From Pararhodobacter sp. SW119 (GTDB lineage: Bacteria; Pseudomonadota; Alphaproteobacteria; Rhodobacterales; Rhodobacteraceae), in the NCBI RefSeq assembly GCF_017811755.1, contig NZ_JADDJF010000003.1, positions 1 to 64,000 of the forward strand: a stretch of 64,000 nucleotides of DNA, in the 5' to 3' direction. The position numbers and the translations under genes are program-made. This document shows, piece by piece, positions 26,788-63,302 of this stretch. The notes beneath the pieces are model-generated. The model was not told the origin of the DNA. It was given only the letters and a program-made list of their open reading frames with translations, and did not search any database. The stretch's first letter is position 1. Each line of letters starts with the position of its first letter.

Positions 26788-27181
26788 TCTTACCGGAAGT
26801 CTCCGACCGGATGCGCGTGATGCGTTCAACGCGTCGGCGGCGACCTCCCGCGCAAGCGTTCCGCACCAATCAAACGAACCGGGATGAGAGCCGCCTTGCG
26901 CCGCGCGTTTTGGCGGGCCCGGCCGTGAAGCGCGCTGATCCGGCCGAAAGTCATACCAGATATGGTATACCGCGCTCCGCCGATCACAAAACGGCCCGAA
27001 AATCGTGCAAAATTCATCGGCCTCAAAACGACGTTTTTTTTCACTTTCGCCGCCGAAATCGTCGTTTCATTTCATCTTCGGGGCAAGATCCTGAAAAATT
27101 CGACGATTTGCGCGCGCGAGGGCGGGGTTGCGCAAGCTTGCGCACCTTCCCGGCCGCGGCAGGGGTCCGCCGCGCGCCCGA
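26788..27181. other. AT-richer intergenic region downstream of tRNA-Thr
   Basis: No gene is supported here. The stretch from about 26940 to 27110 is much richer in A+T than the rest of the window. It holds the inverted repeat ATACCA-GATA-TGGTAT (26953-26968), a T8 run after AAAACGACG, the pair AAACGACG (27026-27033)/CGTCGTTT (27060-27067) and several AAATCGT motifs. It could be a remnant of integration beside the tRNA or a regulatory region. Confidence 0.5.
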
Positions 27182-28849
27182 TCAACCGGCGGCGGCCAGT
27201 TGGCGGCCGGCACAGAAGCAGGAAACCTCGACCGGCAGGTCGGACCGGGCAGCGGCCAGATCAAGGCGCTGCCGCAGCAGCCGGGCCTCGGCCGTACCGG
27301 TTTCGCCGCGCCGGGTCAGGCACGCCACTAGGCCGCGCAGCGACCAGAGGTTGTCGGGATGGATCTGCGCCCGCGTGAGCGTGCCGCCGATGCCCAGATC
27401 CTCGCGATAGACCGACTCGGCCTCCTCGACCCGTCCCTGCTCCAGCAGCAGCGCCCCCAGCGCGTGCCGCACCGGCTGCATCCAGCCCCAAGGCTCGTCA
27501 TAGGGCAACCAATCCTCGCGCGCCACGGCCTCGAGCAGGTCGGCGAAGGCCGCCGGGTAATCGCCCTTCCGATAGGCGATCTCGCCCGAAAGCATCTTCT
27601 CGGCCACCGCCAGCAGGTCCACGCAGCGATTGTTGTGCAGAAGGCGCGTCTCCGGCACGCGCGCCACGGCGGCATGGAACGCCGCCTGCTCGGCCTCGGC
27701 GTCCTCCACCTGCCCCAACGCGGCATGGGCGACGCCCTTCGCGTAATGCATCGTCGCGACGAGGTTTCGGTAGAGGTCGGGATCGTCGGGCATCGGCTGG
27801 GCGATGATCTCCTGCCAGCGGCCGAAACGGATGAGCACGTGCTGCTTCACCGCGATGTAGCTTTCGAAATAGTCGGCCATCGGCGGCGAGGGGATGCGCA
27901 GAAAATCTTCCGGCATGGTCGCGATCAGTTCCTCGGCGGCAGCCAGTGCCGGGGCGAACTGCCCCAGGAACATCGCCCCGTAGACCGCGAAATGGTAGTC
28001 GTGCACCCGGTAGCCGGTGTAGATGTTCATTACCCCGGCATGGGTCAGGAACTTCCGGTCCGCCTCGATCGCCTTCTGGTTCCAGTGCAGCGCGTCGCGG
28101 TAGTGCCCGCAAAGGATGTCGACATGGGTCGGCATGTGCACCAGATGGCCGGCATCGGGCACCAGTTCGCGCAACCGATCCGCCACCTTCAGCGCCGTTT
28201 CCGGAAACGGCGACATCTCCATCAGGTGAACGTAGAGGTGCAGCAGACCCGGGTGATCCATCGCGCCCGGGATCCGGTCGAAAGCCTCCTCCAGCACGTG
28301 CCGCGCCTCGGCCGTGTCCGCGCCCGGGGCGGGCTCGCCACTGCGCAGGTCCCACATCCGCCAGGGGGTACGGTTCATCATCGCCTCGACAAAGACGGTC
28401 ACGATCTCGGGGTCCTGGGGGTGGGCGCGGCAGGCTTTCCGCATGGCATCGGCGAAGGCGTCGTTCCAGACGCTCATGTCCTCGATCGGCTCGGCCTGCG
28501 GATAGCGTGCCGGCAAGGCCGCGATCAACGCGCGCTCGGCCGGGCTGACCCGGTCGGACAATTCAAGGGCAGCCTCGGTCGCCTCGCGCGCGCGGGCCAG
28601 CGCGGCGGCGCGGCCGGCGGCATCAAATAGCTCCCACGGCATGTTGTAGTTGGGTCCGGCGGCATAGGCGACGCCCCACTGCGCCATCGCGCAACCGGGG
28701 TCGGCGGCCAGCGCCTTCTCGAAACAGGCGATGGCTTCCTCGTGGTTGTAGCCGTAGCACCAGACCAGGCCGCGGTCGAACCAGAGCTGCGCCTCGGCAG
28801 AGCGAGTGGTGACCGCGCGCGAATGGGTTCCCAGGTTGAAGTATTCCAT
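27182..28849 (-). CDS. TPR repeat protein
   Basis: This 555-residue soluble protein begins MEYFNLGTHSRAVTT, then WFDRGLVWCYGYNHEEAIACFEKALAADP, a canonical TPR pair, and has further TPR-like helices near 230-290 (HLVHMPTHVDILCGHYRDAL) and 370-480. No signal peptide is visible. The motif HMPTHVDI and the preserved HLY/His residues are typical of a family of long bacterial TPR proteins of unknown role. AGGAGAAG precedes the ATG. It is divergent from the ABC operon, separated by 207 bases with a palindrome, so joint control is possible. Confidence 0.8.
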   Translation of the reverse strand: MEYFNLGTHSRAVTTRSAEAQLWFDRGLVWCYGYNHEEAIACFEKALAADPGCAMAQWGVAYAAGPNYNMPWELFDAAGRAAALARAREATEAALELSDRVSPAERALIAALPARYPQAEPIEDMSVWNDAFADAMRKACRAHPQDPEIVTVFVEAMMNRTPWRMWDLRSGEPAPGADTAEARHVLEEAFDRIPGAMDHPGLLHLYVHLMEMSPFPETALKVADRLRELVPDAGHLVHMPTHVDILCGHYRDALHWNQKAIEADRKFLTHAGVMNIYTGYRVHDYHFAVYGAMFLGQFAPALAAAEELIATMPEDFLRIPSPPMADYFESYIAVKQHVLIRFGRWQEIIAQPMPDDPDLYRNLVATMHYAKGVAHAALGQVEDAEAEQAAFHAAVARVPETRLLHNNRCVDLLAVAEKMLSGEIAYRKGDYPAAFADLLEAVAREDWLPYDEPWGWMQPVRHALGALLLEQGRVEEAESVYREDLGIGGTLTRAQIHPDNLWSLRGLVACLTRRGETGTAEARLLRQRLDLAAARSDLPVEVSCFCAGRQLAAAG

Positions 28850-41598: not shown

Positions 41599-41798
41599 TC
41601 GAAGCCCCCAGGCAAAAAATGCAATGGACTCAAATTGGCAGACGCCGGTTCAAGGATCGTAAACGCCGCCCCGCCCCGTCAAGCACGAAACACGCCCGCC
41701 GCTGCACCCCGTCGCCCGGCAACGGCTGGCGGGCGCGAAAACCTTTCCAAAAGGTTGCGATCACGGAGTATGTGTTTGTTTTTCAATTAGATGATCGA

Positions 41799-41816
41799 CG
41801 GTCCGCTGGCGGACCG
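41799..41816 (-). terminator. Hairpin downstream of lolD
   Basis: CGGTCCGC-TG-GCGGACCG forms 8-bp arms 26 bases after the lolD stop on the minus strand. The following bases are AT-rich but lack a T-run, so termination is uncertain. Confidence 0.4.
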
Positions 41817-41841
41817 CGCGCGATTCACCCCTCCGCGCGGC

Positions 41842-42525
41842 TCAGGCGGCCTCGATGCGCCCGTCCTCCAGGTGCAGCCGGCGGTCCATCCGCTCGGCCA
41901 GCGCCAGGTTGTGCGTGGCGATCAGCGCCGCCAGCCCGGTACTGCGGACCAGGTCCATCAGCACCCCAAAGACCTGGTCCGAGGTGCCGGGATCGAGGTT
42001 CCCCGTCGGCTCGTCCGCCAGCAGGATCTGCGGCGCATTCGCCATCGCCCGGCAGAACGCCACCCGCTGCTGCTCGCCGCCCGACAGCGCCGCGGGGCGG
42101 TGGTCGGTCCGGTCGGCCAGTCCCACCTGCGCCAGCAACCCCCGCGCCCGCTCGGCGGCCGGCGCGCGGCCGGCACCGTTCGCCAGCTGCGGCAGGGCCA
42201 CGTTTTCCATCGCGGTGAATTCCGGCAGGAGGTGGTGGAACTGGTAGACAAACCCCACCCGGTTACGCCGTGCCATCGTCCGCGCGTCGTCGCCCAGCCG
42301 GCTCATGTCCTGCCCGTCGATCACCACGCGCCCCGCATCCGGCTGATCCAGCAGCCCCGCGATATGCAGCAAGGTCGATTTCCCCGCCCCCGACGGCGCG
42401 ACCAGCGCCACCACCTCGCCGCGCTGCAGGGTCAGGCTCGCCCCGGCCAGCACGCGTACGGGTTCGGCCAACCCGCGCTTGTAGGTCTTCTCGATCGCGT
42501 CGAGTTCCAGCACCGGATCACTCAT
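41842..42525 (-). CDS. lolD: Lipoprotein-releasing ABC transporter ATPase LolD
   Basis: This 227-residue ATPase has Walker [10 protein letters not shown], signature LSGGEQQR, Walker [16 protein letters not shown] and [36 protein letters not shown] is the characteristic LolD Q-loop segment. It works with the LolC/E-type permease encoded just upstream to extract lipoproteins from the inner membrane and hand them to LolA. Overlaps the permease gene by 8 bases. Confidence 0.95.
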
Positions 42526-44374: not shown

Positions 44375-44466
44375 GGGCGCCTCCATTTGCCGGCAGGCTA
44401 GTCGGCGCAGGGCGGGCCGGCAAGGGATTTCGGCGCGACCCGGGGAAGCGCATAAATTTGTGCACC

Positions 44467-44524
44467 TTGCCAAGCCTCTGGTTTCTAATGATGAAACGAC
44501 GCCGTTAACCTCAAGGAAAGCTTT
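44467..44524 (+). promoter_or_regulatory. Promoter-like element, copy A
   Basis: TTGCCA (44467), 17-base spacer, GATGAA (44490-44495), then the 17-base core AAACGACGCCGTTAACC (44494-44510) and CAAGGAAAGCTTT. A copy with identical 17-base spacing and identical core lies on the minus strand at 63.2 kb. No gene follows in this orientation, so the transcript, if any, may be a small RNA. Confidence 0.5.
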
Positions 44525-44680
44525 GGGCCGGCGGGTGGAATCGGCACCGGGCGGGCCTGGAGGCGACGCGCAATCGCGCCGGTCACACCGCGCCCACGCT
44601 CCAGCAAAGGCTCGAACGCGGCGCGCGGTATGTCGCGCCCATCCGCCCCGCACCCAGCGTCTCGCCGCCGCCCCCGGAAA

Positions 44681-44733: not shown

Positions 44734-45303
44734 TCAGGCGTTCGCCCGCGCCTTGCGCCGCGCCGCCACGCCCAGCCCGCCAAAAGCCGCGAGCAGCAGC
44801 CAGCCGGCTGCGGGGAGGGGAATTGGTGCGAGTGCGGTGAACTCGCCCCGGGTCTGGCTACCGCCAAAGGTCGCTGAACCTGCGAAGACGATATTCGAGG
44901 AACTCGAGTTGAACAGCAGGTAGACGCCGGGATCGAAGTCGAAACGATCGTCGTTGTTAAAGTCCTGCAGCAGGGTCGTGAGGCCGAGGGCCTCGAACTC
45001 GTCCCCCGAATACGACAAGGCCGACGCCGATCCGTTCCGCAACCCGAGAATGGCCCCCCCGTTGCTGGTGACCGAAGCAAAAATGCTGTCTGCATCAAAG
45101 GTGTCGCCTGCAGCACCGCTGCGAATACGGATTTGACCAATGCGGTCAGCTGTCGGTGCGCCAAGCAGATTAGCCTGCTCTGCAGTTAGGGTGAACACGC
45201 CCGCATTCGTCACAGTTGCGAACTGCGCGATGTAGGTTGAGGCATTGGCCGCACCAGACAGGGCCATCGCGCCGGCGACTACGATTAGTCTAAGATACTT
45301 CAT
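44734..45303 (-). CDS. Exported VPLPA-CTERM sorting-domain protein
   Basis: The 189 residues have a signal peptide (about 1-22, LIVVAGAMALSGAANA), a beta-rich middle with many Ser, Asn and Gly (SNGGAILGLRNGSASALSY, FNNDDRFDFDPGVYLLF), and a tail PIPLPAAGWLLLAAFGGLG then ARRKARANA. This is a standard VPLPA-CTERM tail: PLPA motif, membrane helix, basic end. Such proteins are exported and processed by an exosortase. The body matches no family I know. AGGAAG lies 10 bases before the ATG. Confidence 0.85.
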   Translation of the reverse strand: MKYLRLIVVAGAMALSGAANASTYIAQFATVTNAGVFTLTAEQANLLGAPTADRIGQIRIRSGAAGDTFDADSIFASVTSNGGAILGLRNGSASALSYSGDEFEALGLTTLLQDFNNDDRFDFDPGVYLLFNSSSSNIVFAGSATFGGSQTRGEFTALAPIPLPAAGWLLLAAFGGLGVAARRKARANA

Positions 45304-45748
45304 TGTTCTTGCTTCCTCACGTTGCACTACTTTAACTGGCGACAACCCATACCCGGTACCATTACCCTGAGACGGCTCCACCCTGGTGAGCAATGCCCGG
45401 GCGGCGTGACCCCGGCAAGTGGAAAACGGCAACTTGATTAAATTTGTCAGGGGCTTGGCGCCGTCTGGTTGTCCAGCCACCAAGCCCTCTCTCGCAGGTT
45501 GCGTGCGAAACTTCAGTGGCTGCGCGCCGGGCGAATTTGGCACGCTCACGGACCTGTGACCGAGCGACTTCGCGTCGCGTCGATCCGGTCCCGCCGGCGC
45601 TACCTTCCGCGTTCGTCGCGGGATGTGGCAAGGCGTCCCCGCAGTGCTGGAAAGGGCCGCACGGGTGTTGAAATCCGGTTAACAAAAAAATCGAAACCGA
45701 ACGGAGTCAATGCCTTGGCCGATTGCTCAAGCTTGAGCACCCGCCCGT
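45304..45748. other. Long intergenic region between proS and the VPLPA-CTERM gene
   Basis: There is no supported gene in these 445 bases. Features seen: a strong imperfect hairpin (45451-45487), and AACAAAAAAATCGAAACCG near 45680, an A-rich run. The region is the leader and promoter of the leftward VPLPA-CTERM gene and the 3' flank of proS. Confidence 0.5.
45451..45487. promoter_or_regulatory. Two-tier hairpin in the VPLPA-CTERM leader
   Basis: GGGCTTGG (45451-45458) pairs with CCAAGCCC (45480-45487), with CTGG/CCAG (45465-45468/45473-45476) pairing inside around TTGT. It lies about 150 bases upstream of the VPLPA-CTERM start and could be a leader structure or a terminator for proS read-through. 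Confidence 0.4.
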
Positions 45749-47086
45749 TCAGACCCCGTCGTAGATCTCGGCCAGCCGGGCGACGGCGGCCTCGGGCGAC
45801 ATCTCCTCGCTCTCGCCGGTGCGGCGGCTGGTCAGTTCGACCTTGCCTGCGGCGAGGCCCCGCGGCCCCACCGTCACCCGCCACGGCAGGCCGATCAGGT
45901 CCTGCGTGGCGAACTTCGCCCCCGCCCGCTCAGAGGTGTCGTCGTAGAGGGGCTCGAGCCCGCGGGCCTTCAGCGCGCCGTAAAGCCCCTCGCAGGCCGC
46001 GTCCGTCGCCGCGTCCCCCTGCCGCAGGTTGACGATCCCGGCGTGGAAGGGCGTCACCCCCTCGGGCCAGATGATGCCGCGGTCGTCGTGGCTGGCCTCG
46101 ATGATCGCGCCCAGCAGGCGGGAAACGCCGATCCCGTGGCTGCCCATGTGGACGGGCACACGCTCGCCCTTGTCGTTGACCACCACCGCGCCCATCGGCT
46201 CGGAATACTTGGTGGCGAAGTAGAAGATCTGCCCGACCTCGATTCCGCGCCCGACCTTGCGGTGCGCCTCGGGGACATCGGCGAAGGCCGCCTCGTCATG
46301 CGTTTCGTCCGTGCGGGCATAGAGCGAGGTGAACTCGCCACAGACCGCCGCCACCTGGTCGCGGTCGTCGTAGTCGACGTCGCGCGCGCCCAGCTTCAGA
46401 CCGGTCACCCGGTCATCGTAGAAAACCTCGGACTCGCCGGTCTGGGCGAGGACAAGGAACTCATGCGTGTTGTCGCCGCCGATGGGACCACTGGCCGCGC
46501 GCATCGGAATCGCGGTCAGCCCCATCCGCTCGTAGCTGCGCAGGTAGCTGACCATGTGGCGGTTGTAGGCGTGTAGCGCCGCGTCCTTGTCGATGTCGAA
46601 ATTGTAGCCGTCCTTCATCAGGAACTCGCGCCCGCGCATGATGCCGAACCGCGGGCGGATCTCGTCGCGGAACTTCCACTGGATGTGGTAGAGCGTTAGC
46701 GGCAGGTCCTTGTAGCTGGACACGTGGCTGCGGAAGATGTCGGTTATCATCTCCTCGTTCGTCGGCCCGTAGAGCAGGTCGCGCTTGTGCCGGTCGCGGA
46801 TGCGCAGCATCTCGGGGCCGTAGGCGTCGTAGCGCCCGCTTTCCTGCCACAGGTCGGCGGGCTGCAGCGTCGGCATCAGGAGCGGGATGTGCCCTGCGCG
46901 CGCCTGCTCCTCGTGCACGATCGCCTCGATCCGGCGCAGCACGCGGTAGCCCAGCGGCAGCCAGGAATAGATGCCGGCGGCCTGCTGCTTGATCATGCCG
47001 GCGCGCAGCATCAGCCGGTGGCTGACGATCTGCGCCTCGGAAGGGGTTTCCTTCAGGACGGGCAGGAAATAGCGGGACAGGCGCAT
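45749..47086 (-). CDS. proS: Prolyl-tRNA synthetase (short alphaproteobacterial type)
   Basis: This 445-residue class II synthetase starts [34 protein letters not shown]. It has [27 protein letters not shown] (motif 2), [42 protein letters not shown] and the motif 3 region [19 protein letters not shown], then an anticodon-binding domain. It lacks the large editing insert found in the E. coli enzyme, as is usual for this subtype (about 440 residues). Confidence 0.97.
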
Positions 47087-63082: not shown

Positions 63083-63187
63083 ACGCGGCTTGATGCCGGC
63101 CCGGACTTGCAAGGCCGTGCCCCCGCGGCGTAGGGGTCGGTCACCACCGGCAATTGGGTCGGACTTGCCCCCACGGCGCGACTTCAG

Positions 63188-63244
63188 AAAGTTTCATTGC
63201 GGTTAACGGCGTCGTTTTATCTTTCTATCGCAACATCTTGCCAA
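63188..63244 (-). promoter_or_regulatory. Promoter-like element, copy B
   Basis: Read on the minus strand: TTGGCA (63244-63239), 17 bases, GATAAA (63221-63216), then AAACGACGCCGTTAACC (63217-63201) and CAATGAAACTTTC. The core is identical to that of copy A at 44494-44510. No minus-strand gene starts within the next 2.5 kb. Confidence 0.5.
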
Positions 63245-63302
63245 ATGGTCCGCATGCGGACCGCCCCGACCTCAGGGGCCAGAACCCCCGCCAGCGTCGG
63301 CG

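Follow-up and report, generated by a model that had tools for sequence, protein, structure and literature searches.

Among known repeats, those most similar to the element described here are the RIB/BIME repeats of E. coli, which bind IHF and lie at 3′ ends. According to the accessible text of PMC2817692, a stretch interacting with IHF is flanked by two opposed REPs in BIME-1, and REPs facilitate Rho-dependent termination; the location of RIBs at 3′ ends is stated in the title of Boccard and Prentki (1993). REPs are defined by a 5′ tetranucleotide, GTAG or GGAG, in front of the palindrome (PMC3686654, accessible part). In alphaproteobacteria, intergenic CIR repeats of approximately 110 bp occur in Caulobacter and other members of the class (PMC2229807, accessible part). 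Within the accessible open-licence literature, IHF-bound 3′-end repeats are documented for E. coli, and a search there gave no report of elements of this kind from Rhodobacteraceae. Here, we describe a new variant of IHF-associated palindromic 3′-end repeats, in which the IHF site is predicted.

A dispersed family of approximately 80-bp elements

An earlier note on the window (the whole stretch of DNA analyzed, 64,000 nucleotides) had pointed to two similar sites, A and B. Their sequence was described correctly. The 17-mer AAACGACGCCGTTAACC occurs exactly twice in the window (44494-44510 on the plus strand and 63201-63217 on the minus strand), and two matches at up to three mismatches were obtained in 0 of 100 dinucleotide shuffles of the window. 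Likewise, TTGsCA-N17-GATrAA is found at 44467 (+) and 63244 (-) and at no other place in the window, and no ORF starts after either site, both being positioned behind or between genes. The description was incomplete, though, since a palindrome 5′ of the “−35” was left out and the conserved stretch comprises approximately 80 bp.

The genome-wide search proposed in the note, applied to the assembly (4.51 Mb in 192 contigs, the window being C116:1-64000), did yield further copies, both as 17-mer matches and as model matches. At up to three mismatches, the 17-mer has 33 matches, 24 of which terminate in GTTAACC; a reversed control has 11. From these 24 hits, 22 served as seeds for a whole-element covariance model (R1), which later recovered the two left out. 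In nearly all of the 22 hits, a second conserved part, the palindrome, is centred 47 bp upstream of GTTAACC. R1 finds at least 150 matches at E ≤ 1 and at least 139 at E ≤ 0.001 in its own genome. The family is thus an approximately 80-bp element dispersed in the genome, with four copies in the window. Studied in detail were 102 R1 matches from 90 sources, out of the at least 150. Gene context was tabulated for 99 copies (duplicate rows L118:43, L037:106 and L032:2459 removed) and palindromes were counted in 98 of the 102 rows (after removal of exact duplicates and of the weak copy at 45662-45754 in the window), while the column tables hold 84 and 83 copies after removal of those with other spacing or cut flanks.

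Each element consists, in this order, of a 14-18 bp palindrome, an IHF consensus match 14 bp from the palindrome centre with an A/T tract, and the tail CGTTAACCGCAATGAAACTTTYG. Conservation extends over approx. columns 13-92 with sharp edges, and none is seen outside this core. The closest pair of copies is 77% identical over 92 bp, and mean identity in the variable middle (columns 48-69) is 40%. The copies have diverged outside the fixed blocks and hence do not stem from a recent transposition burst. Some element matches lie at extreme contig ends (C2:1-58, C24:1-44, C122:1-35), as if the draft assembly had broken at the repeats. Covariation that would indicate an RNA fold of the whole element was absent outside the palindrome. 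A tail hairpin proposed by RNAalifold was rejected, as no pair is altered on both sides, and covariation between palindrome and tail is weak and chiefly due to one tail column.

A predicted IHF site at fixed distance from the palindrome

In columns 38-50 the sequence is YAANNNNYTGATW, which corresponds to the IHF consensus WATCARNNNNTTR (PMC8421141 and PMC9820253, accessible parts) in reverse complement. Allowing two mismatches, the consensus is present at offset 14 from the palindrome centre in 94 of 98 copies, and at the six other offsets tried in 0-1 of 98. As background, shuffles of the same bases match in 1.3% and the window at large at 193 of 127,976 positions. The 22 seed copies were picked on the tail alone, and 20 of them have the consensus match. 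A/T content reaches 0.68 in columns 51-63 vs. 0.25 beside them; this A/T-rich stretch flanks the predicted IHF site on the side that is assigned to the A-tract in the accessible text of PMC8421141. In the related genomes G014 and G008 (see below), the site is found in 39 of 44 copies. With fairly high confidence, we predict from the consensus match that IHF binds the element. The palindrome is centred at column 23.5 and the tail at about column 81. Around an IHF bend of about 160° (PMC8421141, accessible part), we infer that the two lie on opposite arms, roughly equidistant from the bend.

The four copies in the window differ in their degree of preservation. Element A covers 44434-44525 on the plus strand as a whole model match (columns 1-92; R1 74.4 bits); R2, a model of the palindrome and IHF part alone, gives E = 2.1e-10 over columns 9-63. 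The imperfect palindrome of A, GCGCATAAATTTGTGCAC (44448-44465, six of the inner seven pairs), is followed on the same strand by the predicted IHF site CAAGCCTCTGGTT (44471-44483, one mismatch to YAANNNNYTGATW), by the A/T-rich spacer on the A-tract side of this site (44484-44496) and by the tail CGTTAACCTCAAGGAAAGCTTTG (44503-44525). Element B was found on the minus strand after a TauE/SafE gene (63186-63277; R1 87.3 bits, R2 E = 2.6e-12). It has a palindrome with the perfect 16-bp core GGTCCGCATGCGGACC (63246-63263), the predicted IHF site CAAGATGTTGCGA with two mismatches (63228-63240) and the tail CGTTAACCGCAATGAAACTTTCT (63186-63208), all on the minus strand. Copy C (45662-45754, minus strand; R1 22.3 bits, E = 7.5e-4; R2 33.7 bits, E = 1.7e-7) lies behind proS, the proline-tRNA ligase gene at 45749-47086 (-), and combines the palindrome TGCTCAAGCTTGAGCA and a predicted IHF-type site with one mismatch (45705-45717) with a degenerate tail. 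Copy D (41739-41830, minus strand; R2 23.9 bits, E = 1.3e-4 for 41768-41822) contains GGTCCGCCAGCGGACC and is degenerate, with a poorly kept tail and a predicted IHF-type site with two mismatches (41781-41793); it is placed behind a LolD-like ABC ATPase gene at 41842-42513 (-). Two further observations in the window may be mentioned. A perfect palindrome, TGCGCAAGCTTGCGCA, at 27129-27144 lies approx. 40 bp past the stop codon of a gene at 27182-28849 (-); no recognizable IHF site or tail was found with it, and it is perhaps a decayed copy. A VPLPA-CTERM sorting domain protein is encoded at 44734-45549 (-) (TIGR03370, E = 6.8e-9, over its cut-off).

Elements are located behind genes

Gene ends were taken from a codon-usage gene caller built for this analysis. 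In 88 of 99 copies a gene 3′ end is found on the palindrome side, the element being located shortly after the stop codon. Convergent genes enclose 64 of the 99 copies and divergent genes one, and a neighbour is missing in five. The others are located between tandem genes, 20 with the palindrome behind the upstream gene and nine reversed; in these 29 copies alone, the orientation bias has p = 0.06. Element A is one of the nine wrong-way exceptions, with its palindrome centre 70 bp before a GNAT gene. For comparison, 8 of 66 gene junctions in the window are convergent, or 5 of 30 for gaps of at least 90 bp. Within convergent gaps, the palindrome side is closer to its stop codon in 52 of 64 cases (p = 2e-8), at a median distance of 37 bp vs. 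100 bp. Neighbouring copies form seven tail-to-tail pairs among the matches listed, as counted by eye. Terminator-like hairpins showed no clear deficit behind element-bearing genes: they were detected before the palindrome in 9 of 89 cases and after the tail in 12 of 89, vs. 21 of 66 control ends, for which longer regions were used.

This location also bears on the suggestion of the earlier note that A and B are promoter-like and may start small RNAs. Both do contain TTGsCA-N17-GATrAA. However, only 5 of the 98 copies retain GATrAA as the −10 hexamer, and at least four bases of TATAAT are matched at this place in 22 of 98. At the −35 place at least four bases of TTGACA are matched in 59 of 98 copies, but the stretch overlaps the predicted IHF site, and the copies sit behind genes. 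Further, no Rfam family reaches its gathering score on the elements: with Rfam 15, one tRNA only was found in the window at gathering thresholds, and a search of five loci at E ≤ 1 gave three microRNA-type matches far under their gathering scores, two of which span a tail-to-tail pair in L024. Sigma-70 promoters of small RNAs are therefore extremely improbable; A and B are real conserved elements, not promoters, and the element looks like a gene-end marker instead. The note's other proposal, a binding site for a global regulator recognizing GTTAAC, holds in so far as the element has many copies, almost invariably with GTTAACC; the site that can be recognized as that of a global protein, however, is of IHF type and located approximately 20 bp upstream of GTTAAC.

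Symmetry of the palindrome is kept while its sequence is exchanged

The inner seven pairs of the palindrome are Watson-Crick pairs in 89, 97, 96, 96, 96, 97 and 98 of 98 copies, counted from the centre outward, and G.U pairs are almost absent. In 81 of the 98 copies the palindrome is perfect over 14 bp, and these comprise 19 different sequences; when left and right halves are re-paired between copies, only 5.5% are perfect. Each half-site draws on a restricted alphabet (G Y N C R M R), with outer modules joined fairly freely to inner ones (association p = 0.02). The central pair, i.e., two directly adjacent bases, is complementary in 89 of 98 copies where 48 are expected. Since adjacent bases cannot pair with each other in a hairpin, the symmetry must either be maintained at the level of duplex DNA, or the arms have been copied from each other. 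Consequently, an RNA hairpin as the sole constraint was ruled out. As a side observation, a near-palindrome with a non-symmetric centre, CAAGGTTG, is common to four copies (L078, L090, L091, L129).

Palindromes are diverse in relatives, too: in G014 and G008, symmetry over 14 bp is perfect in 30 of 44 copies, with 14 sequences. At matching junctions of the own genome and G014, six same-direction pairs and one second element were aligned and read by eye. The inner module is shared in two cases and has switched in the other five, and both versions are palindromic apart from one G014 copy with a mismatch. In the comparison of locus L121 with G008, the element is present there in another arrangement.

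Occurrence in relatives and in other genera

Among 17 other genomes of the same genus, R1 matches were obtained only in G008 (63) and G014 (at least 107), and 22 further genomes of the same search had none. Scanning genome contigs for the tail led to two Rhodobacteraceae MAGs, CSSed165cm_288 and CSSed165cm_500, which are the same genomes as G008 and G014. Behind rpoD, the element is present in the own genome and in G014; G008 keeps the converging neighbour with no intact element, and G001, G004 and G002 have a different neighbour. For two G014 copies (L053, L061), the own genome has no element at the corresponding junctions, which are rearranged and do not represent clean empty sites. At L061 (1135-1758), about 600 bp of G014 contain the element and a small ORF, and the same two genes are approx. 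33 bp apart in the own genome (L257, 2639-2671).

R1 matches in other genera are weak. There, each genome has one uniform palindrome, with 48 pattern copies in G151, 25 in G276 and 10 in G098; in 9 of 11 other same-genus genomes searched the uniform-palindrome pattern was not found, and G002 and G004 have one asymmetric match each. The palindrome-to-IHF offset of 14 recurs in 16 of 16 copies in G151, 9 of 10 in G098 and 5 of 21 in G276. The right half is followed, exactly 42 bp further downstream, by a third half-site in 15 of 15, 5 of 10 and 1 of 10 copies of G151, G098 and G276, respectively, and in 0 of 96 in the own genome. G276 also shows a second arrangement (L191, L192, L197, L202, L207, L208), in which the same palindrome, GTCCACATGTGGAC, precedes an inverted IHF-type motif (AATCAANNNNTTG-like) and a conserved tail that is longer and includes GTTAAC. 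Using R2 under stricter filters, 32 of 394 genomes of the family matched at E ≤ 0.001, some matches having new palindromes, e.g., GTCCCCATGGGGAC and TTTTCACGCGTGAAAA. Many genomes with a single match may be due to chance, and several of 26 R2-derived loci, for which a script chose the best palindrome, lack a convincing element.

Discussion

Taken together, A and B are assigned to a dispersed family of IHF-type 3′-end elements that most likely act at the 3′ ends of genes as a nucleoprotein boundary bent by IHF; judged from sequence, we give this reading, including the predicted IHF binding, a probability of roughly 60%. Its parts differ in strength. Confidence is high for the architecture derived from the alignments, i.e., a DNA palindrome, a predicted IHF site, an A/T tract and a fixed tail at constant spacing past stop codons, and low to moderate for the boundary role. 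In the proposed mechanism, IHF would fold the element by about 160° and a dimeric protein would sit on the two inverted half-sites of the palindrome, so that the bend would bring this dimer to a partner on the far arm; in other genera, the far-arm contact might be the same protein on the third half-site. The compact complex could act as a boundary at the 3′ end, either by stopping read-through or converging RNA polymerases or by pinning supercoils.

More tentatively, the elements may represent a Rhodobacteraceae-wide class of 3′-end nucleoprotein sites with an IHF-bent complex, where a restricted set of interchangeable perfect palindromes (GYNCRMR|YKYGNRC) maintains symmetry as such and not any single sequence. 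These could serve as an address code for related dimeric proteins, or their arms could be identical by templated copying. With at least 139 copies per genome, a fixed palindrome-to-IHF geometry in several genera and changing sequence at constant symmetry, the family is a natural experiment. It raises the questions of what reads symmetry without reading sequence and of whether there is a dedicated complex that insulates converging genes.

Given the turnover of copies among relatives and their patchy distribution, a selfish repeat is also conceivable. A small, non-autonomous REP/MITE-like repeat could be spread in trans by some transposase, IHF assisting transposition, and would be tolerated at 3′ ends as the least harmful location. 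This is possible but rather doubtful. It would fit the confinement to G008 and G014 among the 17 other same-genus genomes, the presence or absence between relatives (L053 and L061, rpoD in G008) and the uniform palindrome of each genome in other genera; Correia repeats likewise carry an IHF site (PMC2229807, accessible part). On the other hand, recent copies are lacking, the best pair being 77% identical over 92 bp, and without conservation beyond the core no end repeats are visible. Neither missing site is a clean empty one. A RAYT-type Y1 transposase (Y1_Tnp, PF01797) was found only in the own genome among the six element-bearing genomes G000 (own genome), G008, G014, G098, G151 and G276, G008 and G151 being 82-84% complete; its main match lies within a 144-aa frame.

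A bidirectional terminator, in which both transcripts form an RNA hairpin from the palindrome, would agree with a position behind stop codons and between convergent genes. It would also account for strict Watson-Crick pairing, because G.U on one strand would correspond to A.C on the opposite one, and on the sense strand, purine-left/pyrimidine-right bases lengthen the stem via G.U pairs. We nevertheless consider it unlikely, as the complementary central bases (89 of 98, 48 expected) are unpairable in a hairpin, the IHF site and fixed tail are left unexplained, and a U tract is missing: of the six bases after the palindrome, four are T in 12 of 98 copies and five in none. At P1 parS and phage att sites, a protein occupies half-sites flanking an IHF bend. 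A recombination or partition site of this design, with protein on half-sites on both sides of the bend, would be consistent with the two inverted half-sites, the predicted IHF bend and, in G151 and G098, the third half-site on the opposite arm at a distance of 42 bp. It is very unlikely, however, given at least 139 copies over many contigs in both orientations and many different palindromes in one genome.

Regarded as a predicted IHF-bent boundary element, the family can be compared with the known repeats. Correia/NEMIS elements measure 105-155 bp and have terminal inverted repeats, whereas no terminal inverted repeats were seen in the element here. Both are small intergenic repeats with an IHF site, predicted in our case (Neisseria; PMC2229807, accessible part). 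With CIR, the element shares its nature as an intergenic repeat in alphaproteobacteria; CIR repeats are defined by conserved GANTC sites, in contrast to our column table, which has no conserved GANTC. High copy number, intergenic location, a variable palindromic part and opposed pairs are reminiscent of REPs with RAYT. Unlike in REPs, the consensus is GGGG/GAAG (columns 9-14 being mostly G, then G/A) and not GTAG/GGAG. Assignment to the REP-RAYT system was rejected, as neither the 5′ tetranucleotide nor, in five of the six element-bearing genomes, a Y1 transposase was found.

RIB/BIME-1 differs in having two REPs around the IHF site, whereas here one full double-stranded DNA palindrome lies beside it; a second palindrome in the place of an opposed REP was not found in the element, and the tail has no palindrome-like covariation. 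Also unlike RIB/BIME-1, the palindromes are interchangeable, the tail GTTAACC is fixed and there is no tie to a Y1 transposase. Nevertheless, both consist of dispersed intergenic palindromes with an IHF site, here at the level of consensus matches (offset 14 in 94 of 98 copies), and both are found at 3′ ends of transcription units, here as a gene 3′ end in 88 of 99 copies and convergent genes in 64 of 99. The element may thus work in a mode like that of the E. coli RIB/BIME-1 elements.
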